IMG/VR virus record: IMGVR_UViG_3300033571_011451
Span: 1-22,742 of that record
Length of the DNA stretch: 22,742 nt
Strand: one strand, 5' to 3'
From: a virus
A program made the position numbers and the translations under genes. Below the pieces are notes generated by a model. That model had not been told where the DNA came from. It saw only the letters and a program-made list of their open reading frames with translations, and did no database searches. This document shows, piece by piece, positions 3,382 to 22,506 of the stretch (positions are counted from its first letter, which is position 1; each line of letters opens with the position of its first letter).

Positions 3382-3460
3382 GCTCTTGCGTTACAGTACC
3401 TGCAACAGATAAAAGTCTAGTTAATGTACTACAACGCCAAACTAAAAAAGGAAATGAAAT

Positions 3461-4597: not shown

Positions 4598-4613
4598 TTT
4601 GCGTTAATTTCAA

Positions 4614-4644
4614 GGTACCGGCTGATCCCCGGTACCGCTTTTTT
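4614..4644 (+). terminator. Rho-independent terminator after the tail tube gene
   Basis: GGTACCGG (4614-4621) pairs with CCGGTACC (4629-4636) around a 7-base loop, followed by GC and TTTTTT (4639-4644), then CTTT. It lies 16 bases after the tube gene stop. It would reduce the chaperone transcript relative to the tube transcript. Confidence 0.88.
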
Positions 4645-4675
4645 CTTTGTTTGATAACCATAAATATTACATAAT

Positions 4676-5083
4676 ATGTCAATTTCATTAAAAACCCTGT
4701 TAGTTCCTTCAAAATCTCTAGAGGTAGAATACCCAGGGATGCCAGATTTTAAAATTCAGGTTGCTTTCCTAAGCCGCGAAACGCTGCAAAGCATTCGTAA
4801 AAAGTCTACTAAAACAAGTTTCAAGAACCGTCAACCAGTTGAAGAACTAAACGACGAACTATTCCTTGAACTATACGTTAAAAGCGCCATCAAAGGTTGG
4901 GGCGGACTAAAGCTTAAGTACTTGGAACAATTAGCACCAGTTGACTTAACTGGTCAAGATGCAGAAGCAGAGCTTGAGTACTCAGAAGAAAACGCACTGT
5001 ACTTAATGAAGAATTCCACAAACTTTGACAGTTTTGTAAGTGAGCAGGTAACAGACCTGGGAAACTTTTCAGCCAGCAAGTAA
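4676..5083 (+). CDS. Tail assembly chaperone, short form (gpG-like)
   Basis: This 135-residue protein is the short partner of the chaperone pair that loads tube subunits onto the tape measure protein and is absent from the finished virion (lambda gpG role). The call rests on position between tube and tape measure genes, the small acidic helical product, and an overlapping second frame reachable by a canonical -1 slippery site at 5059-5065. Visible: an N-terminal strand region (VEYPGMPDFKIQVAFLSRET), a basic stretch (IRKKSTKTSFKNRQP) and an acidic C-terminal half. There is no evident Shine-Dalgarno sequence before this ATG; the 31 bases between the terminator and the start are AT-rich, so initiation may be weak. 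That would fit the modest amount of chaperone needed compared with tube protein. Confidence 0.75.
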   Translation: MSISLKTLLVPSKSLEVEYPGMPDFKIQVAFLSRETLQSIRKKSTKTSFKNRQPVEELNDELFLELYVKSAIKGWGGLKLKYLEQLAPVDLTGQDAEAELEYSEENALYLMKNSTNFDSFVSEQVTDLGNFSASK

Positions 5084-5454
5084 CCAACATACGCGAACAG
5101 CTTCGCAGGTATTTTCAAAATTCGGATGTACGCATGACAAAGGACGCTTACTTTGAAATGTGTGAAATGTTGGCACAAGAGCCAATAGAAGAAGAAATAC
5201 CTGTGGAAGTCAGTGACTTTCCAGACCTAGTTCAGCAGTGTTTTGTGCTATACGGAATACTAGCAGACTGCTGGGATTCGATGGGTGGTGGTTATCTTGG
5301 CAAAGATTACTCAATAGTTTTTAACTTATTTCAAGTATACAATATACTAGATGCTGAAGAAATCCTGTTATGCTTGGATTTCTTACAGCACATGGACGGT
5401 GTACGTCAAAAACTAATCAGCGAAAAAATAAAAGCAAAAAGCCCGCAGCCGTAA
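4676..5454 (+). CDS. Tail assembly chaperone, frameshifted long form (gpGT-like)
   Basis: Predicted -1 frameshift product. Ribosomes read frame 2 to the AAC at 5063-5065, slip back one base on G GGA AAC, and continue in frame 1 from 5065 (CTT) to the TAA at 5452-5454. That gives about 259 residues: the first 130 of the short form, then LFSQQVTNIREQLRRYFQNS and the T-like part. In lambda, gpG and gpGT are made in this way from GGGAAAG, and the ratio of the two is important for tail assembly. Frame 1 is open from 5044 (after TGA at 5041-5043), so the two frames overlap over 5044-5083 and the heptamer sits inside that overlap. The slip itself is inferred from sequence, not measured. Confidence 0.75.
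5059..5065 (+). other. Programmed -1 frameshift slippery site GGGAAAC
   Basis: The heptamer fits X XXY YYZ in the zero frame (codons CTG GGA AAC) and lies in the 40-base overlap between the two chaperone frames, 15 bases before the zero-frame stop. Lambda uses GGGAAAG at the same functional place. A short stem GCGAA/TTCGC (5093-5097 with 5102-5106) lies 27 bases downstream; its relevance is unclear. Confidence 0.82.
5134..5454 (+). CDS. T-like chaperone segment (second frame; probably translated only by frameshift)
   Basis: The first ATG of the T frame is at 5134, but no good ribosome binding site precedes it and the frame extends back to 5044. This 106-residue part is therefore best seen as the C-terminal domain of the long chaperone. 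It is acidic (EEEIPVEVSDFPDLVQQ) and helical (YSIVFNLFQVYNILDAEE, EILLCLDFLQHMDGVRQKL). In the lambda system the T domain binds the tube protein. The last codons run into the left arm of the terminator at 5441. Independent translation from 5134 cannot be excluded. Confidence 0.4.
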   Translation: MTKDAYFEMCEMLAQEPIEEEIPVEVSDFPDLVQQCFVLYGILADCWDSMGGGYLGKDYSIVFNLFQVYNILDAEEILLCLDFLQHMDGVRQKLISEKIKAKSPQP

Positions 5455-5473
5455 AAAGCTTGCGGGCTTTTTT
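5436..5473 (+). terminator. Rho-independent terminator overlapping the end of the T frame
   Basis: GCCCGCA (5441-5447) pairs with TGCGGGC (5461-5467), flanked by AAAAA on the left and TTTTTT (5468-5473) on the right. The A/T flanks mean it could also act on the opposite strand. The stop codon of the chaperone frame (5452-5454) lies in the loop. Confidence 0.87.
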
Positions 5474-5492
5474 GTAGCTAAAAAAATTTGGT

Positions 5493-5521
5493 TTGACAAA
5501 TCCGTGCCTGTGTGCTATAAT
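5493..5521 (+). promoter_or_regulatory. Perfect sigma70 promoter for the tape measure/tail-tip operon
   Basis: TTGACA (5493-5498), a 17-base spacer and TATAAT (5516-5521), with an extended -10 TGC just before. Transcription should start near 5528, giving a leader of about 59 bases. The spacer shares TGCCT-N-TGTGC with the promoter at 21416-21444. It lies directly behind a terminator, so the next genes form a separate transcript. Confidence 0.9.
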
Positions 5522-5538
5522 CGTGTAAACTATAAATC

Positions 5539-5559
5539 CCAGTTTGATTTTTAAACTGG
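5539..5559 (+). promoter_or_regulatory. Small hairpin in the tape measure leader
   Basis: CCAGTTT (5539-5545) and AAACTGG (5553-5559) are perfect complements around GATTTTT. It lies near the predicted 5' end of the transcript and before the AGGAG ribosome binding site (5577-5581). It may stabilise the long mRNA; this is an inference. Confidence 0.4.
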
Positions 5560-5586
5560 AATGGTGTACAGCTATTAGGAGAACAA

Positions 5587-8500
5587 ATGGCAACACAGAA
5601 TATAAACATTGGCGTAAATGTCAGTGACAATGGAACAGCCAAAAAGACTGTTAAAAACTTCCAAGAAATAACACAGGCAGCAACCGAAGCCCAACGCGCA
5701 GCTGCTGGCATTAATGTGCCAGTTAAAAGCACAATGGCACCTGGTGGTACTCCTGGATCGCGCAAAGCAGCAGCGCCTACTGGCTCGCAACAGATGCTAA
5801 GCGGCGAAGAATACGGCCGCGCTCGCGGCACCGCTGGTACTACTGGTGCTAGTGCTCGTGACTTTGCAAACCAAGCACAGGGTCTTGGTGGATTAGTTCG
5901 CCTATACGCCACACTAGCTGCTAACGTATTTGCGGCTAGTGCTGCTTTTACTGCACTTAAAAATGCTGCTGATACTACCAACCTTATACGAGGATTAGAC
6001 ACGCTTGGCGCTGCCAGCGGTCAATCACTGGGCTCACTAAGTAAGCGACTGGTTGAAGTAACAGACGGGGCTATCAGCATGCGCGAAGCAATGACCGCAA
6101 CTGCTCAAGCCAGCAGTGCAGGCATGAGCGGAAAAAATATTGAACGTTTGGCCCTGGTAGCAAAAAACGCGAGTTTAGCTCTTGGTGTGGCTATGCCGGA
6201 TGCCCTAAGTCGCTTAAGCCGTGGTATTGTTAAACTAGAACCAGAATTGTTGGACGAACTAGGTTTATTTACAAAAATCGGCCCAGCTACTGAACGTTAT
6301 GCCTTAGAAATTGGCAAAAGCGTTAATGCACTAAGTGACTTTGAGCGTCGCCAGGCATTTGCTAACGCAGTATTAGAGGAAGGCGAAAAGAAATTTGGTG
6401 CTCTTGCAGAAGCAGCAGCAAACCCTTATGACAAGCTATTAGCCACATTAAAAAATGTAATACAATCTGGACTAGAAGTAGTTAACAAAGTTCTAGTACC
6501 AGTGGTTTCTTTGTTAGCAGAATCTCCTGCTGCACTTGGGGCTGTGTTAGCTGGTATAGGGGTAATACTGCTAAAGCAAGCACTACCTGCAATCGGGCAA
6601 CTTCGCGCAGGTTTACGCAACAGCGCCGAAGAAGCTTTAAAAACCGCAGAAGCCTTTAAAGCGTCTTTTGGAGACAAATTCCAAACAATCCTAGAAAGAC
6701 GCTTTAAAATACCAGACTTAGAGGCAGGCGTTAAAAAAGCTCAGGCTGACCTAGACAAATTAAAAGCACCAAAGAATTTAGTTTCTGTACAAAAGTTAGC
6801 TGCAGGTGATGCAGCTAGCCTTACAACTGTTAAAAACGTTTTGGCAAATAGAAATGATATTGTTGAAACAGGCATGCGCGGCAGTAAAAAAGCTTCTGAA
6901 GCGCAAATCGCTTCAGCCAAGCAGGAAGCTTTGTACATACAAAAAACAATTGATTTATACCAGCAGAAACAAGCACTTGCAACTGCGCGCGAAGGTACTG
7001 AAAATGTTGCTAATAAACCGCTAAGTAGATTTGATCCTGAAGTTATTGCGCTACAAAAATACGACAAACTACGTAGTAAAGTAGACCAAACTAACGCTAT
7101 ATCTAATGCTGCTCAAGTAGCTCAAATTTCTGGAATTAGAGTAGCGTGGCAGTTATTAAATCAGGAGATAGCTGACAAAGGTATAACTGGGTTTGCTAGA
7201 TTTAGTACCCTTGCACAAGGCGGGTTAGCTGCTGTGGGTACTCGCATAATGGGAGTATTAAGTAGTTTAGGGCAAGTTGGGCAAGTTATTGGTATTGCAG
7301 TTGCCGCTTTCACACTATTAGACTCTTGGTTTACAAAAAATGCTAAACAAGCAGAAAAGCTAAACTCAGCTTTAACAACTGCTCAAGAAGCTATGGCTAA
7401 CGTTGCACGTACAATAACAGCAGCCTCAACTATTGATGGGTTTGCTACACGCACTATTGCTAATACTGTTGCATTCTCTAACGCATTAAACCAAGTATCT
7501 GGCAGCCTATCTGATATCATAAAACTTTCTCGCGAAACTGATAAGGCATCAAACGGCTGGGATAACTTTTGGGACGGCGTATTTTCATTTGTTGGCAAGG
7601 ACAGAGCATCAAAATTAGCAAAAACTGTATCAGGTCAGATTCAGTCTAGCCTTGACCTACTAAAACGTGAAGGTTTAGCTGACGAGTACAAAGCTCAAGT
7701 ACAAAAGATACTACAAATAGATGATATAGAAAATGTAGATAAAGTAGCCGCTGCATTTAAAAAGCTAAGCAAAGAGCAGCAAAATGCGCTAATATCTATT
7801 CAAAATAATTCTAATAGACTGCTTGGAAACGCAGGTTCTGCACTGCAAAGTTTCAAAGATAAAACGGATGAAGCATTAAAAGCACAAAAAACTTTAAGCA
7901 ACTCATTCTTAGATACCAGCCCTGCATTTAAGTACGGTGAAAGTCTAGTTGCGGTAAGCAGTAGCTTAAACGCCTTAATTGCACAAGGGCCAGACAGAGT
8001 AGCACAAGCACTGGAAGAAATTTCTACTAATATGGAAAAGGCCGCAATGTTTGGGCCAGAGTTTGTAAACGCGTTTGGAAAGATCAGCGCAGAATTTGGC
8101 AAGCAAAAAGCAGTTATAGATGGTTTAAATAGCGCTCTAGTAACTTATCAAGAGCAACTAAGCCTAGCAAATACTAATGCTGGTACACGTGGTGCTTCTT
8201 TTACAGAAACCGAAGGTGCTCCCTCTGCAATGCGTGGAACTTCCACACAAGATTTAGCAAGTGGTCAAGGTCCTAGACAACAAGCAAGCATTGCTAACAG
8301 CAATGTTCGCGAAGTTCAAAAAGCCTTGCAGGCAGCCCCCCGTGATGCTGTAGACAAAAGTATTGCTTTAGTAGAAGCTGCCTCTAAAAGTTTATTTGAA
8401 CGAGGAATGGCTTTTATTGGTAAAGCAGTACGAGAAGCTCAGACTGCAGCATCAGTAGCAATTGGTAAAGCTTTAACATCTAACTTAACAGGTCCGCAAA

Positions 8501-11500
8501 AACTACAAGCAGACGCAGCATATGCTCAGCAAGAAATAAAAGCGCGTTTGGCTGATATTAAAATATCCGAAGAAATGCTGGATACGCAAACTAGTCTTGT
8601 AAATGAGATGAAACTAGCAAATGCACTACAAGCAGAAGCTAATGCCTTACAAAAAAATGCAGGTAAAGCAGACCAATCCGCAGTTACAGCTGCTTCTAAA
8701 GACGTACAAAAAGCTAGATTAGGTGCAAGTGGAGTTGGTGCAGCCGGAATGCTAAATTCAGACTTATTAAGCGATAAAGAAAAAGCTAATATCAAAGCAG
8801 ACATAGCTCGTCAGAAAAGTATACAACAAGCAGCACTTAAACCGGCAAAGACACTTGCTGGCGGACAATTAACTGCAAGTCAGCTTGGTCTAAAAGGAGA
8901 CCTACCTTTAGCTCAACTAGCTCAAGAAGAAGAATTGAAGAAAATAGCGGATAAGACCACTGCTAGTTTACTTGCAAGGCAAGAAATAATGTCAAACATT
9001 GCAAGTGTAACAACAGCAGAAATTATTGCCAACAAACAAAGCCTAGATTTAAAAGAAAAAGCCAATCAACAAGCAAGAGAGCTTGAAGAAATTACTGCAA
9101 GAATTCAGCAAGCAGAAAGCAAATATGCAGATGCTGTTAACTTACAAGATCGCGTTGCTCAAGACACTCAACTACAACAAATTAGCTTTTTAAATAAAGT
9201 AAAAAAGGGAACTGAAGAAGCACAAAAAGCAGATACGTCTGTAATTGATGCAAAAAATAAACAACAGTTAATCGTTCAAGAACTATCGGATCTAGATAAA
9301 CGATATGAAGTATTAAAGTCTACCAGCGAGTTAGAAAATCAAATAGCTGTTACACGATTGGATACTAATAGTCAAGTATTAAATCTGCAAGCCTCTGTTA
9401 ATGAGTATTCACAAAAATACGTTATTGCATTGCAAACATCCCTGGACAAGGAAAAGGCTTTATTAGATAGTAATATTGCTATGCAACAAGCCCAAGATAC
9501 TTTAAACCAAAAACGTGAAGCTGCTGAAATAAGAATACAGGCACTTACGGCTGATGGGGCGGAAAAAAATAAAGCTTATATTGACGCAGAAACCTCAGAG
9601 TTAGCTAGACAAGAAACACTAACTAATAATGTTATAGCCGGGTTAACTAATCAATATAACTCAAAAGTGTCTTTGCTAGATCAAACAAAAAAGATCAATA
9701 CTCAGCAAGCTAAATATAACGAGCTATTACAAAACAGTAGCTTACTCGCCACATCTTTAGCAGATGTTTTTGGAGACATGGGAGCCAAAATCGGTGCTAT
9801 GACTAGTGCAATCACGGAATTTGCGGTAGCAAGTGAAAAGAATGCAAAAAGTTTACTAGATTTAGAAACAAAACGTGCAGCAACAACTGACCCTAAATTG
9901 CAGCTGGCACTAGACGAAGAAATTGCAACTCAAAGAACTAAAAATACCCGTACGGAACTAGCAGGTAATGCAAAGCTAGCCGGATCGGCCAAAAATTTGT
10001 TTAAGGAAAAAACTGGTGCTTACAAAGTGTTTGCAGTTGCTGAAAAAGGTTTTCAACTAGCAAGCTTAGCTCTTGAAATAAAAACCAGTTTAACAAAACT
10101 GGGTTTGTGGGCAGCTGAAGTTCCTGCTAAAGTTGGAACCGAAGCTGCGGTAACCGCAGCAGCAACCGCAGGTGCAGCTGCCAGAGCGCCAACTACATAC
10201 GGTGAAATCGTTGGCAACTATCTTGCAAAAATACCCGCCCCATTTGGTATGATTGCTGGTGTAGCTGCTGGTGCATTCTTTTTAAGTTTACTTGGTAAAA
10301 GTGGTGGAGGCGGGGGTGGCGGTTTTATACCAAACGCTGAACAACGTCAAGAAACTCAAGGCACTGCAATGGGTTATAATAGTGAAGGTGCTAAAGTTCA
10401 AGTACGTCGCGGCGTATTTGGGGACACAGACGCTAAGTCAGAGTCAATTGCTAATTCGTTAGAAATTATCAAAGATAACTCAGTGGACGGTTTAAGTTAT
10501 AACAACCAAATGGTTGATTTACTAGCTAGTATTGATAATGGTATTAATAATACTGCCAAAGGTTTATACGGTATCCAAGGTTTACGTAGCGGAAGTATGT
10601 TTGGTACTGTCACTGGTTCACAAAGCGGTGGTGGATTACTTGGCTCAGGATTTTTAGCCAGCAAAACTTCGCGTAGTATTACTGACAGTGGCTTAATAAT
10701 CGAAGGTACTTTCGCACAACTGGCCAGCGATACTAATGCAGCAGTTATCGACTTCTTTGAACAAGTAACTGTGTCAAAGAAAAGTTGGTACGGCAAAACC
10801 AAAACTTGGGTTGAAGAGCAGCGCACAGAAATTGACGATGCTACTTCAGATTTCTTTCAAGACATATTTGGTAATGCTACTAAGCTGTTTGTTGAAGTAG
10901 GTAAAAAAGCCGGTATAGAAAAAACAGCAGTAAATCAAATTCTTGGCACCTTAGACATAGGTAAAAACTTTACCAGCTTACGCGGTTTAAAGGGTGAAGA
11001 CTTCCAAAAAGAACTAAGTGCCGTCATTGGTACCGTACTAGACGACGCTGCTCTAGCAGTATTTAGTAATTTTAAAAGTTTTGCCAATTTTGGTGAGGGC
11101 ATGTTGGAAACTGTTGTGCGTGTTGTAGACACAAACACCAAGATAAACCAACAAATTAAAAATATTGGAATAAACTCTGGCGAATTAAGCTTTGCTATAA
11201 CTGAAACACTTGCCGATATAGCTGGCGGGCTAGAAACCTTCCTAGAACAAACTAACTTTTTCCGCGAAAACTTTTTAACTGAAGCCGAACGTTTAGCTCC
11301 GGTTCAAAAAGCTGTAACAGAAGAAATGGCCAGACTGGGTTTTGCAAGCGTAGATACCCGCCAAGAGTTTAAACAACTAGTGCAAAACTTAGATTTAACT
11401 ACTGATGCTGGTCAGCAAAATTATCAAGCACTAATAACTGTTGCAGAAGGATTTGATCAGGTAACTACCGCAGCAGAAGATTTTGCGGCAAAAACCAAGT

Positions 11501-12789
11501 CTATGCGAATGAGTATCCTAGAGCTAACAGGCACTCCAGAACAGTTATTGGCTGCACAACGCACCGAAATATTAGGCGAAACCGATGAACGCTTACGTAC
11601 AACGCAACAATACATTTTTGCGCTAGAAGATGTTAAAGACGCAGAATCCAACCTAACAAAAGCTCGTGAAAATGAAGTTAGTAGCTTAAAGCAGCAAAAA
11701 TCCACAACAGATTCTACTATTAATTCACTTAAAAATTATATTAATTCTCTGAAAAAATTCAAAGATTCTTTATTGCTTGGTTCAGCGTCACCGCTAACTC
11801 CTGCACAAAGATATGCCGAATCTAAGAGCCAATTTGATGCAATTTTAGCAACTGCAATGGGCACGGCTGTAACGCCAGAAGAGCAGCGTACAAAAGACGC
11901 TGCGTTAAGCCAACTGGAAAGTTCCGCAAGTGCTTTCTTGGATGCAAGTCGTATATATAATGCAAGTTCCGCACAATACACAGAAGACTTTAGCTTAGTA
12001 CAAAGCGCTTTAAGTAATACAGAAAGTGCACTAATCTCGCAGTTAAGCACAGAAGAAAAATCACTACTAGCTTTAGAATCCCAAATATCGGCACTAGAAT
12101 CTCAACTTTCAGTTAGCAAGAGTATTTTAACTGTGCTAGAAGCTACACAGGCTTTAATTGCAGCACAAGCCACAGCCTCACAACTTAAGTCTGTGGATTT
12201 ACGTCAAACTGCTATGAACACAAAGCGTGCTGTTATAGACGAAGGTAATATATTTGGCGCACAAGGCGAAGTATCTACTCAAAATATTCTTGGACAAAAT
12301 TTAAACGCTTGGATGGGCAATGCCAAAGCCTCAGGTACTTGGGCAGATGTCAATCACTTTTATGATAACTTAGTAAATAAGTGGGGCTTTAACTCCACAG
12401 AAGTTGAGTGGTTATTGGGCGTACCTAAGTCGGAGCTACTAAGCTTTTTTGGTAGTTACAACTTACCGGCTTTTGCTATGGGCACAAACTTTGTTCCAGA
12501 AGATATGGTTGCACAAATTCACCAAGGTGAACGTATTATACCGGCAGCGGATAATATGGAACTAATGGCAAGTGTTGGTAACCGTAATAAAACCAATGAA
12601 ATACTTGTTGCCGAAATTCGCAAACTAAATCAAAAAATCGACTCACTGGAAAAGACTGTGGCTAATGGTTCAATTATCAACGTAGAAGCCACTAACCGCA
12701 ACACAGTTGAAATTACAAATAGTGTAAAAGACACAAAAACAACCGCTTCGTATTCAGAAGCACTTCGTAGGAGAACTCAAGTAGTATGA
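5587..12789 (+). CDS. Tail tape measure protein
   Basis: This 2400-residue protein is the ruler that sets tail length and is later ejected toward the host membrane. TAGGAG (5576-5581) precedes the start. Visible in order: an N-terminal NINIGVNVSDNGTAKKTVKN leader; hydrophobic segments at about 316-335 (GAVLAGIGVILLKQAL), 536-582 (GQVGQVIGIAVAAFTLLDSW) and 1552-1572 (GMIAGVAAGAFFLSLLG); long Ala/Gln/Lys-rich coiled-coil stretches between about 880 and 1480; a run of seven glycines near 1573; and the conserved GDTDAKSESIANSLEIIKDN region just after it. Near residue 2297 comes the FAMGTNFVPEDMVAQIHQGE and RIIPAADN motif common at tape measure C-termini, then a closing coiled coil. At about 0.15 nm per helical residue the upper limit for the tail is about 360 nm. 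No lytic enzyme motif was recognised. Confidence 0.93.
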   Translation: MATQNINIGVNVSDNGTAKKTVKNFQEITQAATEAQRAAAGINVPVKSTMAPGGTPGSRKAAAPTGSQQMLSGEEYGRARGTAGTTGASARDFANQAQGLGGLVRLYATLAANVFAASAAFTALKNAADTTNLIRGLDTLGAASGQSLGSLSKRLVEVTDGAISMREAMTATAQASSAGMSGKNIERLALVAKNASLALGVAMPDALSRLSRGIVKLEPELLDELGLFTKIGPATERYALEIGKSVNALSDFERRQAFANAVLEEGEKKFGALAEAAANPYDKLLATLKNVIQSGLEVVNKVLVPVVSLLAESPAALGAVLAGIGVILLKQALPAIGQLRAGLRNSAEEALKTAEAFKASFGDKFQTILERRFKIPDLEAGVKKAQADLDKLKAPKNLVSVQKLAAGDAASLTTVKNVLANRNDIVETGMRGSKKASEAQIASAKQEALYIQKTIDLYQQKQALATAREGTENVANKPLSRFDPEVIALQKYDKLRSKVDQTNAISNAAQVAQISGIRVAWQLLNQEIADKGITGFARFSTLAQGGLAAVGTRIMGVLSSLGQVGQVIGIAVAAFTLLDSWFTKNAKQAEKLNSALTTAQEAMANVARTITAASTIDGFATRTIANTVAFSNALNQVSGSLSDIIKLSRETDKASNGWDNFWDGVFSFVGKDRASKLAKTVSGQIQSSLDLLKREGLADEYKAQVQKILQIDDIENVDKVAAAFKKLSKEQQNALISIQNNSNRLLGNAGSALQSFKDKTDEALKAQKTLSNSFLDTSPAFKYGESLVAVSSSLNALIAQGPDRVAQALEEISTNMEKAAMFGPEFVNAFGKISAEFGKQKAVIDGLNSALVTYQEQLSLANTNAGTRGASFTETEGAPSAMRGTSTQDLASGQGPRQQASIANSNVREVQKALQAAPRDAVDKSIALVEAASKSLFERGMAFIGKAVREAQTAASVAIGKALTSNLTGPQKLQADAAYAQQEIKARLADIKISEEMLDTQTSLVNEMKLANALQAEANALQKNAGKADQSAVTAASKDVQKARLGASGVGAAGMLNSDLLSDKEKANIKADIARQKSIQQAALKPAKTLAGGQLTASQLGLKGDLPLAQLAQEEELKKIADKTTASLLARQEIMSNIASVTTAEIIANKQSLDLKEKANQQARELEEITARIQQAESKYADAVNLQDRVAQDTQLQQISFLNKVKKGTEEAQKADTSVIDAKNKQQLIVQELSDLDKRYEVLKSTSELENQIAVTRLDTNSQVLNLQASVNEYSQKYVIALQTSLDKEKALLDSNIAMQQAQDTLNQKREAAEIRIQALTADGAEKNKAYIDAETSELARQETLTNNVIAGLTNQYNSKVSLLDQTKKINTQQAKYNELLQNSSLLATSLADVFGDMGAKIGAMTSAITEFAVASEKNAKSLLDLETKRAATTDPKLQLALDEEIATQRTKNTRTELAGNAKLAGSAKNLFKEKTGAYKVFAVAEKGFQLASLALEIKTSLTKLGLWAAEVPAKVGTEAAVTAAATAGAAARAPTTYGEIVGNYLAKIPAPFGMIAGVAAGAFFLSLLGKSGGGGGGGFIPNAEQRQETQGTAMGYNSEGAKVQVRRGVFGDTDAKSESIANSLEIIKDNSVDGLSYNNQMVDLLASIDNGINNTAKGLYGIQGLRSGSMFGTVTGSQSGGGLLGSGFLASKTSRSITDSGLIIEGTFAQLASDTNAAVIDFFEQVTVSKKSWYGKTKTWVEEQRTEIDDATSDFFQDIFGNATKLFVEVGKKAGIEKTAVNQILGTLDIGKNFTSLRGLKGEDFQKELSAVIGTVLDDAALAVFSNFKSFANFGEGMLETVVRVVDTNTKINQQIKNIGINSGELSFAITETLADIAGGLETFLEQTNFFRENFLTEAERLAPVQKAVTEEMARLGFASVDTRQEFKQLVQNLDLTTDAGQQNYQALITVAEGFDQVTTAAEDFAAKTKSMRMSILELTGTPEQLLAAQRTEILGETDERLRTTQQYIFALEDVKDAESNLTKARENEVSSLKQQKSTTDSTINSLKNYINSLKKFKDSLLLGSASPLTPAQRYAESKSQFDAILATAMGTAVTPEEQRTKDAALSQLESSASAFLDASRIYNASSAQYTEDFSLVQSALSNTESALISQLSTEEKSLLALESQISALESQLSVSKSILTVLEATQALIAAQATASQLKSVDLRQTAMNTKRAVIDEGNIFGAQGEVSTQNILGQNLNAWMGNAKASGTWADVNHFYDNLVNKWGFNSTEVEWLLGVPKSELLSFFGSYNLPAFAMGTNFVPEDMVAQIHQGERIIPAADNMELMASVGNRNKTNEILVAEIRKLNQKIDSLEKTVANGSIINVEATNRNTVEITNSVKDTKTTASYSEALRRRTQVV

Positions 12790-14270
12790 AAACAATAGCC
12801 GAAATAATTAGTTGGTTAAAAGCAGCTGATAATATTCGAACTATTTTAGTTGAGATAGATGATGTGTTAGTACAAGGTAGCCAATCGGCTACCTTGTATC
12901 TGGCTAATAGACCATTTGTAACTAACAGTTCTGATATACCAGTTAATACTACTTACGATCCTTGCTTAGTAGGAGGGGTAAGTTTTAGTGAAAACTTATC
13001 GTTAGATAACTCTATTAGTATTGGTTATGGAGATCTTGAGATTGACAATACCGATGGTAGTAAGGACTCTTGGTTAAATTACGTTTGGACAAATCGTAAA
13101 CTGCGAGTGTACATTGGTGATGCTAGCTGGAGCAGAGATGATTATACACTTATTTTCTCGGGACTAGTTTCCGATATTGTAAGCAGAAACAGAGATCGTA
13201 TAAATTTAGTACTTGTGGATAAGCTACAAAGACTAAATAATCCTATATCAGAAACACTGTTAGAAAGCTCTGAATTGGGTAGCGAAACACTTATACCAGT
13301 TATTTTTGGTGAATGTTTTAATGTAACACCACTTGTTGCAAGCAGCAGCGCGCTAACATATCAAGTACACACCGGACCGATTGAAGACATAATTGAAGTC
13401 AGGGACAATGGCGTGCCTGTGAGCTTTACTAAAAATGTAGCTGCAGGTAAGTTTACGCTTAATCAAACTCCCTATGGGCAGATAACATGCAGTGCTCAAG
13501 GTGCCAAAGATGTGGGTATTTATTACAATACCATACCAGGTATAATTCGTTTGATAGTAAAAAGTTATGGGCCAGTAAACACACGTTTAACTGACTCCGA
13601 TATTGACCTAGCAAATTTTCAACAATTTGAAACGCTGTATCCATATCCTGTAGGCGTTTACTGTACTAGCAGAGAAAATATACTTGAAGTATGTAATCGA
13701 CTAGCAAACAGTATTGGTGCGCAACTTACTTTTAGTAATTTGGGTTTGTTAAAATTAGTACGACTGGATATGTCTGGTACAGGTACTTCTCATACCGTTA
13801 ACTCTGTGGACTTAGAGTCAAAAAGTTTAAATATTGCGGATAAGTCTGTGGTGCGGGCTGCAACAAAATTAGGCTACTGTAAGAACTGGACAGTGCAACC
13901 TAGTGGACTAGCTGCAGGCGTTAATCCTGCAAGTATTCCGCTGTTTAACACAGAGTATTTGTTTGAATCTGTTGCTGACACAAGTGTTGCCACTAGGTAT
14001 GTGCTAACAACGGAACCTGAACCAGAAAATACATTGTTAATAACTGTTGCAGGTGCTCAAGCAGAATGTGCACGCCGCAATAATTTGTTTAAAGTTCCAA
14101 GAACAGTTTATTCAATGACAGCATATCCTCACCTGTTGTTAGTGAATTTAGGCGACACAATTAATTTAAATAACTCTCGTTTTGACTTAGCCAATACTAA
14201 ATCTGGTATTATAGTAAGTATTAACAGAGACTGGATATTGGGTAGGGTAACTTTAGGAGTGCTTGTATAA
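12786..14270 (+). CDS. Tail tip / baseplate hub-like protein
   Basis: This 494-residue protein begins in the tape measure stop (ATGA at 12786), with AGGAGA upstream, so its translation is coupled. Position straight after the tape measure gene is where distal tail or hub proteins lie. Visible: an N-terminal YLANRPFVTNSSDIPVNTTY followed by GYGDLEIDNTDGSKDSWLNY and RVYIGDASWSRDDYTLIFSG, a pattern shared by a group of phage tail-tip proteins; a middle VIFGECFNVTPLV; and a mixed alpha/beta C-terminal half ending MTAYPHLLLVNLGDTINLNN and a GIIVSINRDWILGRVTLGVL strand. The last part resembles a hub-type beta barrel. No Tal-like peptidase or lysozyme motif was seen. The function is inferred mainly from context. 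Confidence 0.55.
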   Translation: MKTIAEIISWLKAADNIRTILVEIDDVLVQGSQSATLYLANRPFVTNSSDIPVNTTYDPCLVGGVSFSENLSLDNSISIGYGDLEIDNTDGSKDSWLNYVWTNRKLRVYIGDASWSRDDYTLIFSGLVSDIVSRNRDRINLVLVDKLQRLNNPISETLLESSELGSETLIPVIFGECFNVTPLVASSSALTYQVHTGPIEDIIEVRDNGVPVSFTKNVAAGKFTLNQTPYGQITCSAQGAKDVGIYYNTIPGIIRLIVKSYGPVNTRLTDSDIDLANFQQFETLYPYPVGVYCTSRENILEVCNRLANSIGAQLTFSNLGLLKLVRLDMSGTGTSHTVNSVDLESKSLNIADKSVVRAATKLGYCKNWTVQPSGLAAGVNPASIPLFNTEYLFESVADTSVATRYVLTTEPEPENTLLITVAGAQAECARRNNLFKVPRTVYSMTAYPHLLLVNLGDTINLNNSRFDLANTKSGIIVSINRDWILGRVTLGVLV

Positions 14271-17200
14271 TGGCATCAATAACTAACGCAAGAGATTTAC
14301 TATTACAACAAACAAATCCTAGGCTAGTAAGTGTTTCAAGTAACTTTATTGCACTTACTCCAACAGCTAACTCTTTTAGTAGTACGGCTTCTGGCACTTC
14401 GCCTAGCAGTATACTTGTTACAGCTAATTTATCCGGCGAACTTAGGGGGGCGGTTACTTGGTCTACAACCCCTGCAGTAACTTTTACTACAATAGGTAAT
14501 AACGTACTAAGTCTACCATTTGCTTCTGTTGCTGCAATTAGTTCTGTTACAGTAACTGCAACTTTAGTTGCATATGGCCAAACATACACTACTTCTACGG
14601 TTATATCAAACGTATCTGAGTCCGTTGTATCCAGCCTAAGTCTGAATAATACTACTGTAGCCACAGATGCCCTAGGGGCTGGCGGAAATTACGTATCCGC
14701 AACCACTACTATGAGTATTTTGATAGGTAGTGTAGATAATTCCAGCGCCTGGGCGTATTCTTGGGCAGTGCCTAGCGGAGTAACTGCAGCAGATGCAAAT
14801 ACTAGAACTGTGTCTGTTTCAGCCATGCAACAAGATACGGCTAGTTTAACTTGCACTGCTACTCGTACTGGTTGGCCGACTCAAACAAAAACTTTTACTG
14901 TTACAAAAGCAAAACAAGGCTTTACTGCTAGCTTAGTTAGTTTAACTACCACTGAATTAGTGTTTATTAAATTTAAAAATGGCACACACAATACTAATAG
15001 TGTTACTATTAGTAGCAGTATTCAAAATATACCAAATCCTGTATATACTTGGACAGTAAATGGCGTAGCTCAACCTAGTGTAACTACCCCAAATTTTGGG
15101 TTTAATCGCCCAGCCGCAGTGGGCGTATACACAATACGTCTAACAGTAACTTCTAGCACCAATGCAGCCATTAGTATATCTGATGTTATATCTATTGCAT
15201 ATCTTGAAGAAGGCAGTGATGCACTAACATTTTTATTCAAAGATCCGCAAATTTTAGTAAGTGCAAATAATTTGGGCGTTGTTGAAAATAGTATCACACA
15301 AATAACCAATCACATTATTGGAGCTCGCGGAATTGCACTGCTAACTCCTGGTACAGACATAACATATACTGTTGCCAGCGCTGAAAACTGTGTTGCTACT
15401 ATTACCTCAGTAACTGGTACGTGGAATCAAGAGTTTACAATAACTGGTAGTATTTTCTCTGATGTTAATATTACAAATGCTAAGGTAGTTATAAGATGTC
15501 AAACACCTGGCGGAATTAATGTACTACAAACGTGTTATATTGCCAAAGTAAAAGCAGGGGCTAAAGGTTCTGATGGAGCTCCTGGTAAAAATGCAGTAAT
15601 AGTTGATCTGATTAGTGAAGCCGATGTAGTAGCATCAGCTGCCGACGGTAAAGGGTATACGTTACCTACCGGAAATGCAATAAGACTGTATTCCGGTAAT
15701 GCATTGGTTACTAGCGATGTTACTTATGGCGGAACAGCTACAAAAAATGGATTAACAGCAACTGTTAATCCAGCAACAGGCAGTATTGCACTTAGCGGCA
15801 CTAATTGGACAAGTGATTCCGAAACTTTCAACATTACTGCTTCAGTTGGTTCTGCTTCCCAAAGTATTATTAGTGTGTCCCCCACACAATTTGACGCCAG
15901 AGCTTTAGGTCCTGTTATATCTGTGGATACTATTGCAGCACACCCAACAGCAAGTGTTTTGGCAGCTTCTGGCTTCTTAAAGTACTTATTAGCAACCGCA
16001 AACGGCTCACAAGAAGTTGTTGTTTCCTATAAAAAAACAGGAAGCACAATTAGTCAAAGTGCTTTTACGCTAGCAGACCAGCCGTTGACGTATACTGCAC
16101 CTGTTTCTTCTATTTTGTTTGGTTCCAACGACGATCACGACACATTATTTGTAGATGCTGATGGTGCTGGCATACTGTCTCTAACTAATACTAGTACTCT
16201 TACACAAGGCAATTATCGTAAATTTAGGGGTAGCCAAGAACTTACAAGTGCGCAAACACTTAGTGCTACTACTAAGTATGATGTAACTAGTTTAGTATCT
16301 GGAATAAATTCTACAGTTGTTAGTTTTCCTCTTACTGGTAGCTCCATAGCACTTAATTTTGCTACTGTAGCTGCCAAAGTAAATAATGGTACTGCATTTT
16401 CTTTCAGCAACACACTTCTTGCAAATTTTACAGGCATAGGTCAAGCCGTTAACAATCTGTGGACTATTAGTGATGGAGTAAATCAGTTTATTATTGGCAG
16501 ATATGGTAATAATACTGCCTGTATTGTAACTGTTAATTTAACCAACGATACTATTTCTTTAATGCAAGAATTGGTTTTAAGTACTGCACCAATACAGACT
16601 AATTTTACTGAAGAAGACGCAATAGGAACTCAACTGTTCTCTGTTGATGGGGCAACAACTTGGTGTTCTAATACTCTGTATTATTATGGCGGCACTACAG
16701 GTTGGAAATCTAATACCAACGTTTTTAGTACCACAGGAAAGTTAAGTTTCTCAGCAGGAACATTAGACACCCAAACTGATATGGATATCTGGGGGTCTGT
16801 TGATACTGCTGGATTTGTTTGGTTTGCTGATTGGGGGCACGATGACGGGGGGCTATTTAATCTTGGCAATGATGATAGACTTGGTACTCGCCCTACTAAT
16901 ATACGTTATACCCCTAGTTTTATTAGTTCGATAGGGGATATTTATAGTGCTGACTATTCTATTGCAAAATCTCGTGCTGGCAGTGACGCCATACTTATTG
17001 ATTTGCTAAGCGAATCTGATATAGTAGCAACAAATGCAGAAGGCCTGGGCTATACACTACCCACAGGCAATAGTTTAAGACTATTCAGGGGCGGTACACA
17101 GCTAACCTCTGGTGTAAGTTATATTGGTAACAACACGCAGAATGGGCTGCTGTTAATTATTGACGCTAACAGTGGTGCAATCACCCTAAGTGGAGCTAAC

Positions 17201-20200
17201 TGGACAAGCAACAGAGAAACTTTTCTACTAACGGCTACATTTGGCGGTATATCTTACACATACACCTACAAAATTGCCAAGGCCAGACAAGGTGTTCCAG
17301 GATCGAATGGCAACAATACAGCTACAGTAGCATTATACGCGGTAAACTCAAATTCTACTACACCTCCTGAAACATTTACAGGCACATTTACCTACACATT
17401 TAGTACTTCCGTATTAAGTGGTGGCACCCTTAACGGCTGGAGCCAAACAGCGCCTAGTATAAGCAACGGCCAGTTTTTATGGGTTCGCTACGCGGTTGCT
17501 AGCGGTATTGGCACAACAGATCTTATTGCTAGCACTGAATTTAGTGCAGCTGTGGTAATGTCTATTGGGGGAACAAATGGCTCTAATGGTATTAATACTG
17601 CCACCATTGAATTGTTTGCAAAAAATACCAGCGCTATTACGCCGCCTGCAGCATTTACTGGCACATTTACTTATACGTTTAGCACCTCAGCACTAGTTGG
17701 CGGTACATTAAACGGTTGGGCACGTAGTGCTCCAAGCATTGGCAATGGTGAATATTTATGGGCTCGTTATGCTGTAGCTGCTAGTAGTGGTGCAACTGAC
17801 CAAGTTACCGATGCAGAGTTTAGCACAGCAGTGGTTATTAGTATTGGTGGCACAAACGGCACAAACGGCATAGTTACAGACTTGATTAGTGAGTCGGATG
17901 TAGTTACTACATTGGATAATGGTACTGGATATGTGCTGCCAACGGGCAATGCACTAAGACTATATAGTGGAGCCAATACACTAACCTCTGGAGTTACTTA
18001 TGGAGGTACGGTTACTAAAAATGGTTTAACTTTAACTATTGACTCAGCCGGATCAATTACACTAAGCGGCGCTAACTGGTCAAGCAACCAAGAAACTTTT
18101 AGAGTAACAGCTACTTATAGTGGGGTAGTGTATACTGCTGACTATTCTATTGCAAAATCTCGTGCTGGCAGTGATGCTGTGTTTGTTGACTTGCTAAGCG
18201 AAGCGGATGTGATAACAGCAGCCTCAAACGGTACTGGCTATACACTTCCCACAGGTAACTTTTTGAGACTGTTCAAAGGCGGAGTCCGACTAACTACTGG
18301 AGTTGTTTACAGTGGTAATACTGTAAAAAATGGATTAACGCTAGCTATTGACGGCAGCACGGGTGCAATCACCTTAACTGGTGCAACTTGGACAAGCGAT
18401 AGAGAAACGTTTACACTAACAGCTAGGCTTGGTACGGTAGATTACACGTATACCTACAAAATTGCTAAAGCCAAGCAAGGTACAAGTGGAGTATCTACAG
18501 CAACTGTAGCACTGTATGCTGTAAACTCAAGTTCTAGTACTCCGCCCGATACATTTAGTGGTACTTTTACCTATACATTTAGCACTTTGGCATTAAGTGG
18601 CGGTGTCTTAAATGGCTGGAGCCAAACACCTCCTAGCGTAGGTGTTAATCAGTTTCTGTGGGTTCGTTATGCGGTTGCTAGTAGTACAGGTACCACAGAC
18701 ACTATTGAAGCTTTTGAATTTAGTGGAGCGGCCATAAGTTCGGGCGGTGGAACACCTGGAACACCTGGTATTAATACTGCCAGAGTTGAACTTTTTAGAA
18801 AAAACATCAGCGCCAGTACGCCGCCTGACGCCTTTAGTGGAACTTTTACCTATACATTTGCAACTTCAGCACTTAGTGGTGGTACGTTAAACAGTTGGAC
18901 AACAACAGCCCCAAGCATTGGCAATGGAGAATATTTATGGGCCAGATATGCAATGGCTGCCAGCAATACAGCAACTGACTCAGTCCTTGCCTCAGATTTT
19001 AGTCAAGCCGTTGTTATTGGTATTGGTGGTAAAAATGGGGATCCTGGTGCTCCTGGTGCTCCCGGTGCCCCAGGTGCTCCCGGAACACCAGGGTCAAATG
19101 CAGTAAAATCTACTAGTGGTTATATTTACTATACTAGTTCAACTGGCAACAACCCAGGTACGCCAAGTGCTAGTAGTTTTAACTTTATCGACGGTAGCTT
19201 TAGTAATCTAACTAGTGGTTGGAGTACAGGAATTACCATGACCAGTAACGGAACTTACTGGGCAACACGATATGTGGTAACAGAAACAGCTTTTGGTACC
19301 AATCTGGGAGCACCTACTTTTAGCACCCCATTTAACCACCAAAACTTTAGTGGATTAGTGACTTTTACAGATCAAACTAATGCATTAAGTAATTATGCTA
19401 CTATACTTGGATTAGGTACACAAAATTATACTTCTATTCACGGCGGTAATATTACTACAGGCACACTAATTGCTGATAGTATTAAGTCAGGGACAATTTC
19501 AACTCAATCCAACCTTACTTTTGGTTTTGGAATGGGCTCTGCTCTTCAGGGCATACTTACAGCAGGGTTTTTTAAAAGTGCGAGAGCAGATGCAGCTGGT
19601 TTAGGCTGCTCTGGGTTACTTAACGTCGGTTTTGCCGCCTCTACTGCTAGTCAAGTCAGCGCTGCAGCATTATTTGGAAATACGTATAAAAATATACCAG
19701 GCCAATTTCCAGTAACAGAAAGCGTTAGTGGTGTAGATGTTGTAGTAGGGGTTTCACTAGCACATGGAGCAAACCAAACCGCTATTTTTGGACAACGCCG
19801 AGATCCCGCTAATGCTTTGGGCGGTAGCGCTTCAGAAACAACTGCTACTCGTGGTACCTCAACATATGTTAGATTAGCCTATTTAGAAGGAGCTAATAGC
19901 TTTGGTGGTAAGTTAATGACTACCAATATAGACGGTATAGATACTCGCGGGATTACTATTGGAGGCCCTAGCTATGGTGCAACGGTGCTAGGGGGTTTGG
20001 CACCTTTTACTGGATGCCACGACGGCCTACTGGATAAAACAGCGACGCCAGAACCAGGGGACATACTAGTGGATACAGGTATTGTGGTTGCCAAAGTTGG
20101 TATTGGTGATACAATAACACAAGTAACACTTAGCTCAACTGCAAATCAAAAAGGTGCTATTGGAATATATGTAGATAAAAACACAGAAATCCCATATATT

Positions 20201-20530
20201 TTAAAAGTTCCTACTACACGCGAAACTGTGGAACAGGGTGTTACAATAGAAGTAGTAGACTACAAGCTAGACCCTAAGTTTGAGCAAGTTGTCGCAGCCC
20301 ACGATTTTGTTGCAATAAACAGTCTTGGCGAAGGTCAAATTAACGTATGTGGAGAAAATGGTACTATTGAACTAGGTGACTTAATTGTTACAAGCTCAAT
20401 ACCTGGCAAAGGTATGCGACAAAGCGATGATATTGTACGATCAATTACAGTTGCCAAAGCTCGTGAAACCGTAGTATTTGACTCGCCTACTCAAGTAAAA
20501 CAAATTGCGTGTATTTACATGTGTGGATAA
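14270..20530 (+). CDS. Giant modular tail-tip (central fibre / receptor-contact) protein
   Basis: This 2086-residue protein is probably the tip protein that contacts the host. The start overlaps the previous stop (TAATG), with AGGAG at 14255-14259. Residues 1-430 hold Ig-like or PKD-like beta modules (YTWTVNGVAQPSV, AVGVYTIRLTVTSS). Residues 443-1593 are built from four A modules (LPTGN..RL...L.SGV.Y.G, SGA.W.S..ETF) and four B modules (ELFxKN or ALYAVNS, TPP..F.GTFTYTF, GTLNGW, LWARYA). Collagen-like GXY stretches lie at about 430-441 and 1587-1607. Residues about 1721-1744 (IHGGNITTGTLIADSIKSGT) resemble the segment after fibronectin-like modules in lambda J-type tip proteins. The C-terminal domain has CHDGLLDKTATPEPGDILVD and GDLIVTSSIPGKGMRQSDD followed by TVAKA, known from phage fibre ends. 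Receptor binding is inferred, and no enzymatic site was recognised. Confidence 0.7.
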   Translation: MASITNARDLLLQQTNPRLVSVSSNFIALTPTANSFSSTASGTSPSSILVTANLSGELRGAVTWSTTPAVTFTTIGNNVLSLPFASVAAISSVTVTATLVAYGQTYTTSTVISNVSESVVSSLSLNNTTVATDALGAGGNYVSATTTMSILIGSVDNSSAWAYSWAVPSGVTAADANTRTVSVSAMQQDTASLTCTATRTGWPTQTKTFTVTKAKQGFTASLVSLTTTELVFIKFKNGTHNTNSVTISSSIQNIPNPVYTWTVNGVAQPSVTTPNFGFNRPAAVGVYTIRLTVTSSTNAAISISDVISIAYLEEGSDALTFLFKDPQILVSANNLGVVENSITQITNHIIGARGIALLTPGTDITYTVASAENCVATITSVTGTWNQEFTITGSIFSDVNITNAKVVIRCQTPGGINVLQTCYIAKVKAGAKGSDGAPGKNAVIVDLISEADVVASAADGKGYTLPTGNAIRLYSGNALVTSDVTYGGTATKNGLTATVNPATGSIALSGTNWTSDSETFNITASVGSASQSIISVSPTQFDARALGPVISVDTIAAHPTASVLAASGFLKYLLATANGSQEVVVSYKKTGSTISQSAFTLADQPLTYTAPVSSILFGSNDDHDTLFVDADGAGILSLTNTSTLTQGNYRKFRGSQELTSAQTLSATTKYDVTSLVSGINSTVVSFPLTGSSIALNFATVAAKVNNGTAFSFSNTLLANFTGIGQAVNNLWTISDGVNQFIIGRYGNNTACIVTVNLTNDTISLMQELVLSTAPIQTNFTEEDAIGTQLFSVDGATTWCSNTLYYYGGTTGWKSNTNVFSTTGKLSFSAGTLDTQTDMDIWGSVDTAGFVWFADWGHDDGGLFNLGNDDRLGTRPTNIRYTPSFISSIGDIYSADYSIAKSRAGSDAILIDLLSESDIVATNAEGLGYTLPTGNSLRLFRGGTQLTSGVSYIGNNTQNGLLLIIDANSGAITLSGANWTSNRETFLLTATFGGISYTYTYKIAKARQGVPGSNGNNTATVALYAVNSNSTTPPETFTGTFTYTFSTSVLSGGTLNGWSQTAPSISNGQFLWVRYAVASGIGTTDLIASTEFSAAVVMSIGGTNGSNGINTATIELFAKNTSAITPPAAFTGTFTYTFSTSALVGGTLNGWARSAPSIGNGEYLWARYAVAASSGATDQVTDAEFSTAVVISIGGTNGTNGIVTDLISESDVVTTLDNGTGYVLPTGNALRLYSGANTLTSGVTYGGTVTKNGLTLTIDSAGSITLSGANWSSNQETFRVTATYSGVVYTADYSIAKSRAGSDAVFVDLLSEADVITAASNGTGYTLPTGNFLRLFKGGVRLTTGVVYSGNTVKNGLTLAIDGSTGAITLTGATWTSDRETFTLTARLGTVDYTYTYKIAKAKQGTSGVSTATVALYAVNSSSSTPPDTFSGTFTYTFSTLALSGGVLNGWSQTPPSVGVNQFLWVRYAVASSTGTTDTIEAFEFSGAAISSGGGTPGTPGINTARVELFRKNISASTPPDAFSGTFTYTFATSALSGGTLNSWTTTAPSIGNGEYLWARYAMAASNTATDSVLASDFSQAVVIGIGGKNGDPGAPGAPGAPGAPGTPGSNAVKSTSGYIYYTSSTGNNPGTPSASSFNFIDGSFSNLTSGWSTGITMTSNGTYWATRYVVTETAFGTNLGAPTFSTPFNHQNFSGLVTFTDQTNALSNYATILGLGTQNYTSIHGGNITTGTLIADSIKSGTISTQSNLTFGFGMGSALQGILTAGFFKSARADAAGLGCSGLLNVGFAASTASQVSAAALFGNTYKNIPGQFPVTESVSGVDVVVGVSLAHGANQTAIFGQRRDPANALGGSASETTATRGTSTYVRLAYLEGANSFGGKLMTTNIDGIDTRGITIGGPSYGATVLGGLAPFTGCHDGLLDKTATPEPGDILVDTGIVVAKVGIGDTITQVTLSSTANQKGAIGIYVDKNTEIPYILKVPTTRETVEQGVTIEVVDYKLDPKFEQVVAAHDFVAINSLGEGQINVCGENGTIELGDLIVTSSIPGKGMRQSDDIVRSITVAKARETVVFDSPTQVKQIACIYMCG
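15861..16945 (+). other. Inserted domain of about 360 residues inside module A1 of the tip protein
   Basis: Residues about 531-892 interrupt module A1: the ETFNITASVG strand before it and the YSADYSIAKSRAG strand after it are contiguous in A3. The insert is beta-rich and has acidic loops (NDDHDTLFVDADGAG near 620-634; WGHDDGGLFNLGNDDR near 854-869) and several Trp and Tyr residues. It could be a carbohydrate-binding or calcium-binding domain; no family was recognised. Confidence 0.6.
16948..16986 (+). repeat. 39-base identical direct repeat, copy 1
   Basis: Identical at nucleotide level to 18136-18174; it encodes ADYSIAKSRAGSD at the A module border. The surrounding modules have diverged more, so the identity suggests recent recombination or gene conversion between the units. 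Confidence 0.85.
17870..19027 (+). repeat. Four-module repeat unit 2 (A3, A4, B3, B4)
   Basis: Second copy of the A-A-B-B block: A3 at 17870-18169, A4 at 18179-18481, B3 at 18497-18769 and B4 from 18776. A and B modules are each about 90-100 residues. Unit 2 is close to 390 residues and lacks the insertion of unit 1. It is followed at once by the longest collagen-like stretch. Confidence 0.82.
18136..18174 (+). repeat. 39-base identical direct repeat, copy 2
   Basis: Partner of 16948-16986, at the A3/A4 border of unit 2. Confidence 0.85.
19028..19090 (+). repeat. Collagen-like Gly-X-Y stretch (tandem 9-base repeat)
   Basis: Seven Gly-X-Y triplets: GKN, GDP, GAP four times, GTP. The DNA is a 9-base tandem repeat of the type GGTGCTCCN. 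A shorter stretch of four triplets (GAK GSD GAP GKN) is at 15557-15592. Such linkers are common in trimeric phage fibres, which supports a trimeric tip protein. Confidence 0.88.
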
Positions 20531-21566: not shown

Positions 21567-21929
21567 ATGTTGGAGTCTAATTTTGAGCAAACCTTACAAG
21601 CCGTCAGCCTGGTAGCATTAGCAGTAATGGGGGTTTTTATTGGTGTGCAAAAAATCTTAAAGAATTGGCGAAGTACTGAAGCAGAGACTTCGATTATAAC
21701 ACTTATGCACACAGAGCTAGAGCGCATGAGCGAGCAGAATACTAAGCTTAGCGTAGAACTAGGCAGGTTGCATATAGAAATAATTGCTTTAAATAAAGAA
21801 TTGCAGAAACTAACAGTTGAAAATCAACACCTACGAAACGAGGTTTGCGCCCTTACTCAAGAAGTAAGCAACTTCAAACAATTGTCGGTGGCACAGAAAG
21901 GCAAAATATATGCAGCCAGCAAAACTTAA
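21567..21929 (+). CDS. Small membrane protein with one TM helix and a long coiled coil
   Basis: This 120-residue protein has one hydrophobic helix at about 9-31 (TLQAVSLVALAVMGVFIGVQ) and then a heptad-patterned coiled coil over about 45-105 (LERMSEQNTKLSVELGRLH, ELQKLTVENQHLRNEV). The N-terminus is acidic (MLESNFEQ) and the residues just after the helix are basic (KILKNWR). By the positive-inside rule the coiled coil should lie in the cytoplasm, which speaks against an inner-membrane spanin, whose coiled coil is periplasmic. AGGGAG is nine bases before the start. It is the first gene of the second promoter's transcript, and its end overlaps the next gene by 20 bases. Function unknown: a holin-like, assembly or superinfection role are all possible. 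Confidence 0.6.
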   Translation: MLESNFEQTLQAVSLVALAVMGVFIGVQKILKNWRSTEAETSIITLMHTELERMSEQNTKLSVELGRLHIEIIALNKELQKLTVENQHLRNEVCALTQEVSNFKQLSVAQKGKIYAASKT

Positions 21930-22506
21930 TTATAAAATTTACCAAGGCAGCACCTTTGAAGAAATGTATCGCTGGGAATCTGAAACAAAAGTTTATGTAC
22001 CCATTCAAGCAGTTTCAAAAAGCGCACCTTGTGTAATAACTACCACACAACCGCACGGACTACCACAGGGTTGGAGATTCCGTGTGGTAGGTGCAGGCGG
22101 TATAAAAGAACTTAATAATGTGGGAGACAGCTTTTACTTAGCCACAGATGTAACCGCAAACACTATTACTATTAATCAAACAAACAGTTTGCAGTACACA
22201 GCTTACACAAGTGGTGGCGTCATAGAGTACAATCAACCTGTTCCACTAAACAACTACAGTGCACGTATGCAAATTCGTGAAACTGTGGAAAGTACTGAAG
22301 TGTTGTACTCCGGCACAAGCACCGCAGGCGGGCACCTGCTGTTTGACAACACTGCAAAAACCATACTGGTTAGAATCCCTGCCACAGTAACAGCCACATT
22401 TAGTTTTACAACCGCTGTTTACAGCATTGAATTATATGATCCAAATGGTATAGTAGTTCCATTTTTGGTAGGTAATCTAACACTAGTTCCGGAGGTTACA
22501 CGATGA
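21910..22506 (+). CDS. Upper baseplate (BppU-like) protein with inserted FCCH-type domain
   Basis: This 198-residue protein likely links fibres to the tail tip. Residues 1-25 (KLNYKIYQGSTFEEMYRWES) and about 112-198 (PVPLNNYSARMQIRETVES, then VYSIELYDPNGIVVPFLVGN and LTLVPEVTR) match the pattern of BppU-like N-terminal domains found next to phage fibre genes. Between them, residues about 37-108 (VITTTQPHGLPQGWRFRVVG, GIKELNN, TANTITINQ) look like the FCCH domain described from ubiquitin-activating enzymes and also present in phage structural proteins. GAAAGG (21896-21901) lies upstream of the ATG, inside the previous gene. The stop overlaps the next start (ATGA at 22503). No enzyme activity is implied by the FCCH name. 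Confidence 0.6.
   Translation: MQPAKLNYKIYQGSTFEEMYRWESETKVYVPIQAVSKSAPCVITTTQPHGLPQGWRFRVVGAGGIKELNNVGDSFYLATDVTANTITINQTNSLQYTAYTSGGVIEYNQPVPLNNYSARMQIRETVESTEVLYSGTSTAGGHLLFDNTAKTILVRIPATVTATFSFTTAVYSIELYDPNGIVVPFLVGNLTLVPEVTR

Follow-up and report, generated by a model that had tools for sequence, protein, structure and literature searches.

An eight-module phage tail fibre protein with a doubled A-A-B-B block and signs of mosaic ancestry

The BACON array in a tail-associated open reading frame (ORF) of the prototypical crAssphage consists of eight domains, and its growth has been attributed to several duplications of one domain each and expressly not to the copying of many domains at once, with horizontal domain transfer in other lineages (de Jonge 2019, PMC6949934). 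In λ gpJ and T5 pb3/pb4, fibronectin III repeats are found, and the sandwich domains have been proposed to be linkers (PMC7291167). In cellular proteins, repeats often expand by several domains at once in the middle of the array, as observed in 24 proteomes (Björklund 2006, PMC1553488). We analysed a 2086-residue ORF in a 22.7-kb fragment (22,742 nucleotides, hereafter the window) of the viral record IMGVR_UViG_3300033571_011451, which is fragmentary and consists of a single contig. The ORF would encode a central fibre or tail-tip-like protein, and it also contains an array of eight domains. Its growth seems to have been composed of duplication and horizontal transfer as in the BACON arrays, but here, unlike in crAssphage, two module families (four modules) are repeated as a unit. 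Different from the cellular repeats, the multi-module growth is found in a phage fibre and appears to be combined with recombination between phages. No earlier report of block copying in phage fibres was found in the open literature, most subscription journals being outside this coverage.

The modules are arranged in the order A1[insert]-A2-B1-B2-A3-A4-B3-B4, and one A-A-B-B block comprises 393 residues, in agreement with the repeat of about 390 residues proposed in the first-pass annotation of this DNA. That annotation had also paired the modules across the two blocks (blocks I and II), and the pairing is borne out by pairwise alignment, in which the identities are 65% for A1-A3, 64% for A2-A4, 71% for B1-B3, and 74% for B2-B4, and 51–66% for the remaining pairs within a family. 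Compared with shuffled sequences, the similarity within a family gives z values of 37–54. In a four-sequence column bootstrap, the first module was grouped with the third and the second with the fourth in 9763 of 10000 replicates for A and 9976 of 10000 for B. The repeats are in the same register in the DNA as well, with 300-nucleotide matches (72% identical) at spacings of 1188 nucleotides (A2/A4) and 1179 nucleotides (B2/B4). Trees uniting neighbouring modules, which the annotation had named as signs of local duplication, were examined by approximately unbiased (AU) tests with many relatives, and the clades A1+A2 (p 0.024), A3+A4 (p 0.005), and B1+B2 (p 0.035) were rejected. The blocks are about 65–73% identical in DNA. 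Since comparable fourfold sites are only 44–54% identical between them and thus saturated, the doubling of the block is old.

Relatives with fewer blocks were obtained by scans of viral contigs (L numbers). L002–L006 and L012 have the order N3-N4-A-A-B5-C, with one A-A pair, no B pair, and no insert, while in L017 and L018 the order is N3-N4-A-A-B-B-B5-C1, so that A-A-B-B occurs exactly once, again without the insert. Thus, of the one-, two-, and three-block relatives that the annotation had suggested as a check, the one-block form was found in the scans, whereas no second two-block and no three-block relative was, two blocks occurring in the window only. Across the relatives, the A in first position is like A1/A3 and that in second position like A2/A4; because these orthologous positions are kept, A-A is an old positional pair. 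The pairing of modules across the blocks and the existence of relatives with A-A only and with one A-A-B-B support the block, not single adjacent modules, as the unit of growth. A different unit, N3-N4-A-A, occurs twice in L106 (ORF 4731–11129), where the second copy is more diverged and interrupted.

A narrow IMG/VR search for a second two-block phage, using a degenerate pattern of the B-to-A junction, matched only L177; the matching ORF is terminase-like without A/B modules, and we discarded it as a chance match. Among named phages, only Colwellia phage 9A (C3) and weak B-like matches in Vibrio phages (34%) were obtained, with none for A, though low-complexity filtering may hide some. One Sphingopyxis metagenome-assembled genome has B-B among bacterial genomes. 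Sequence searches of the PDB gave no match for the blocks or the insert, and only a chance-level one for C3 (a ribosomal protein, E 0.94).

The nearest relative shifts along the ORF, from L121 at N1-N2 to L006 at N3-N4 and A1-A2, L017 at A3-A4, L003 at B5 (84%), and L002 at C3 (81%). Grouping of N3-N4 with L017 (p 5e-24) or L002 (p 4e-6) was rejected, as was grouping of C3 with L006 (p 1e-4). Because the N3-N4 and C3 flanks belong to different phage lineages, at least one recombination breakpoint is indicated between N4 and C3, in or beside the double block. In the best six-row tree of the A-A pairs by exhaustive likelihood, ((block I, L006),((block II, L017), L002)), the two blocks are separated. 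Forcing the A-A pairs to be sister blocks is 17.0 log units worse, a difference reached in 0 of 300 parametric simulations (maximum 2.4; such parametric tests are liberal), and the blocks were joined in 9 of 200 column bootstraps. The ratio of diagnostic sites (L006:L017), picked after the trend was seen, is 22:15 in A1-A2 and 6:26 in A3-A4 (Fisher p 7e-4). The two B-B pairs are each other's sisters, by 11.3 log units and in 187 of 200 bootstraps, the signal coming mostly from B1/B3 (99/90). As judged from the trees, sister status between the blocks holds for B-B and is doubtful for A-A. The first-pass annotation had claimed that one block was duplicated as a unit; growth by blocks stands, but the blocks do not seem to be simply two copies from one lineage.

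The best explanation, which we hold with slightly better than even confidence, is that the block was duplicated in an L017-like lineage and that recombination then replaced N3-N4-A1-A2. The gene would encode a long central fibre in which short linkers, in part Gly-rich and collagen-like, join a string of β-sandwich modules. Starting from a shared ancestor with one A-A pair, as seen in several relatives, a B-B pair would have been added behind A-A to give the A-A-B-B state of L017/L018. Tandem duplication of this block may then have taken place in the L017-like lineage, as suggested by the sisterhood of the B-B pairs and the link of A3-A4 to L017; the probable route is unequal recombination within the repeats or the Gly-rich linkers. 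At a later stage, N3-N4-A1-A2 could have been exchanged for DNA of an L006-like phage by homologous recombination, since the nearest relative switches along the ORF. A separate mobile domain, INS, would have been inserted at the hairpin turn of A1.

Several observations weigh against this history. An 11-row mixture-model AU test leaves A-A sisterhood unrejected (p 0.26); because of this result and the liberal nature of the parametric tests, the evidence that the A-A pairs of blocks I and II have different nearest kin is moderate. B2+B4 were not recovered as sisters, though their sisterhood was not rejected. In addition, neither an L006-like phage with B modules nor a second two-block phage was found, so that only one sequence underlies the proposed order of events. 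Given the AU result, one A-A-B-B block may simply have been duplicated in place, as the first-pass annotation had it, with uneven rates making the A-A pair of block I look L006-like. The sisterhood of the B-B pairs and the existence of a one-block relative agree with such a duplication, but the six-row exhaustive likelihood and the parametric and column bootstraps disfavour A-A sisters, and block I shares states with L006 whose gain would not be expected of a decaying copy; we consider this duplication unlikely, though with an appreciable share of the probability.

The change of nearest kin over the double block, where L006 gives way to L017/L002, could also result from an unequal crossover of two phages, where block I and N3-N4 came from an L006-like A-A-B-B phage, and block II and the C-terminal end from an L017/L002-like one, with no duplication within a genome. 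The B-B pairs of both blocks are, however, closer to each other than to L017, and the absence of B modules from the L006-like phages found also speaks against this crossover, which we regard as distinctly unlikely. The mosaic of nearest relatives in a single contig of a fragmentary record might be expected of an assembly artefact that joined two phages. Such an artefact is very improbable, as one frame is open across 6.3 kb, the blocks are too different in DNA for repeat collapse, and the relatives, with only 51–84% protein identity, include none that was literally spliced in. Successive local duplications, from A to A-A and from B to B-B in each block, have precedents in the local pairs of other phages such as L103 (85%) and L105 (80%). 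They are hardly credible here, since the A1+A2, A3+A4, and B1+B2 clades were rejected and the positions of the first and second A are conserved across phages.

The large insertion that the first-pass annotation had seen in the first copy was located inside A1, not between modules. Judging from the A3 model, INS interrupts A1 at a tight turn between long strands (residues 1274–1283 and 1286–1298), and the turn of this long β-hairpin could carry a domain without breaking the sandwich. INS (about 350 residues) has no Pfam or PHROG family. Its relatives, which are 35–50% identical, occur alone or in other proteins in L007–L011, L014–L016, and L172: a stand-alone 382-residue protein in L007, a 400-residue protein in L172, a C-terminal domain behind TIG and He_PIG immunoglobulin domains in L014, and a domain inside a 2145-residue protein with Laminin_G domains in L010. 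The motifs NDDHD, SDGVN, TEED, and WFADWGHD are strongly conserved among domains of this type. Because INS is absent from the A1 relatives and present alone or in other phage proteins, it appears to be a mobile phage domain. Its predicted model is of low confidence (predicted local distance difference test score (pLDDT) 64), and the many β-propeller matches (Z up to 7.4) are within background. INS is most likely an adhesin displayed at the side of the fibre. As for the fibre ends, L017 has a Peptidase_S74 chaperone (ORF 5298–9998) where the window and L002 have C3, and therefore the ends have been exchanged too. The comparison shows that block number, fibre ends, and the inserted domain have been exchanged separately among phages.

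In a monomer prediction, block II forms four all-β domains with a mean pLDDT of 86.3. Foldseek template modelling scores are low when the block is taken as a whole, presumably reflecting the jointed arrangement of its domains, and the domains were thus compared one by one. The predicted A modules resemble the S-layer Sap domain (Z 9.0, 2.8 Å over 94 residues) and cadherins (Z 7–9), suggesting an immunoglobulin/cadherin-like β-sandwich. For the A and B modules, PHROG matches are marginal and no Pfam match reaches the cut-off; the best Pfam match for A, BT_3044-like_C (E 7e-4), lies below it. As in λ gpJ and T5 pb3/pb4, the predicted sandwich domains lie between the tail-bound part and the receptor-binding end, but, unlike in those proteins, profiles of named sandwich families, including fibronectin, are not matched. 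B5 is B-like, with 26–30% identity to the B modules, a weak similarity that is not significant by shuffling. The modelled β-sandwich modules and the Gly-rich linkers fit a string of spacers in the fibre. The extra modules most likely serve as spacers that increase the distance between the tail and the terminal adhesive parts, and it is plausible that the second block lengthened the central fibre. Since the flanks of the double block come from different phage lineages, lengthening in one step, as the first-pass annotation had it, is an inference, and the present protein does not seem to be the product of a clean one-step duplication.

The gene order in the window is a capsid fragment, connectors, a tail terminator, a major tail protein, chaperones, a 2400-residue ORF in the tape-measure position, a 494-residue protein, and the 2086-residue ORF (Table 1). 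Major head protein matches run from the left edge of the contig (window 2–850) with no stop upstream in the open frame, and the capsid gene is probably cut by the edge. The C3 end of the fibre is 42.7% identical over about 176 residues to a Colwellia phage 9A protein (NC_018088) annotated as central tail fiber J. Because of this homology and the order of the tail genes, "tip protein" is a good working label, although no classical N-terminal hub domain (Tal-like) was matched in the ORF in Pfam or PHROG. The likeness to 9A J is confined to C3; tblastn with the low-complexity filter on gave no match outside it and detected no A/B modules. Colwellia phage 9A has L/K/I-type genes, which the window lacks: unlike in λ, no separate L/K/I ORFs stand beside the fibre gene, and one gene, for the 494-residue protein, lies between the 2400-residue ORF and the fibre. 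A relative of this protein in L121 is 65% identical, and the next L121 gene begins with N1-N2. The protein marks the tail lineage and is possibly the hub that seats the fibre; a sequence search of the PDB with it gave no match. Downstream of the fibre gene are a 120-residue coiled-coil-like protein (window 21567–21929), overlapping the next ORF by 20 bases, and a 198-residue ORF without Pfam match (window 21910–22506).

Table 1. Features of the fibre gene and the preceding gene (positions in the window; aa, amino acid residues)
Feature	Residues (aa)	Positions	Strand	Remarks
Upstream tail protein, 494 aa		12786..14270	+	phrog_8917 (unknown function), E 2e-66
Central fibre / tail-tip-like protein, 2086 aa		14270..20530	+	Intact ORF after the 2400-aa ORF and 12786-14270
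N1-N2, N-terminal modules	1-216	14270..14917	+	Nearest L121 (51%, 65%), L023 (44%, 50%)
N3-N4 modules	217-440	14918..15589	+	Nearest L006 (70%, 76%); clade with L006/L106 100/100
A1, first part	441-531	15590..15862	+	65% to A3; nearest L006 first A, 70%
INS, 357 aa, within A1	532-888	15863..16933	+	Absent from all A1 relatives
A1, last strand (GDIYSADYSIAKSRAGS)	889-905	16934..16984	+	Aligns with A3 VVYTADYSIAKSRAG
A2	906-1014	16985..17311	+	64% to A4; nearest L006, 67%
B1	1015-1106	17312..17587	+	71% to B3; B1+B3 clade 99/90
B2	1107-1199	17588..17866	+	74% to B4
A3, start of block II	1200-1301	17867..18172	+	Nearest L017 first A, 74%
A4	1302-1406	18173..18487	+	Nearest L017 second A, about 80%; clade 98/95
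B3	1407-1499	18488..18766	+	71% to B1
B4	1500-1592	18767..19045	+	74% to B2
Collagen-like Gly-X-Y linker, GDPGAPGAPGAPGAPGTPG	1587-1609	19028..19096	+	Pfam Collagen only weakly matched (E 0.0076, below cut-off)
B5, conserved C-side module	1609-1690	19094..19339	+	81-84% identical in L002, L003, L012
C3, C-terminal domain	1911-2086, including stop codon	20000..20530	+	L002 81% identical, clade 97/100; shared with Colwellia 9A J

In other phages that carry at least four A or B modules, a module is often most similar to the one two positions away, a pattern to be expected of two-module copying. Such similarity is found for B in L034 (85%, 96%; ORF 2553–9941), L021 (96%, 91%), and L047 (74%, 79%), and for A in L115 (66%, 78%) and L112–L114 (57–71%, 50–62%). 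Copying of single modules also occurs, in L103, L105, and modules 7–8 of L034. Copying by blocks thus appears to be genuine and to recur among phage fibres. A wider proposal is that phage fibres grow mainly when multi-module blocks are copied as co-infecting phages recombine unequally at repeated modules and Gly-rich linkers, one event both lengthening the fibre and swapping its ends; we put this forward only tentatively and think it doubtful as a general rule.

The window and its zero-block and one-block relatives provide a readable series for the lengthening of a phage fibre, and the two-module copying in L021, L034, L047, L112–L114, and L115 contrasts with the published single-domain growth in crAssphage. 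The separate exchange of block number, fibre ends, and the inserted domain bears on the evolution of host range and reach. The chief interest lies in the series of zero, one, and two blocks, together with the apparent mixing of duplication with recombination.

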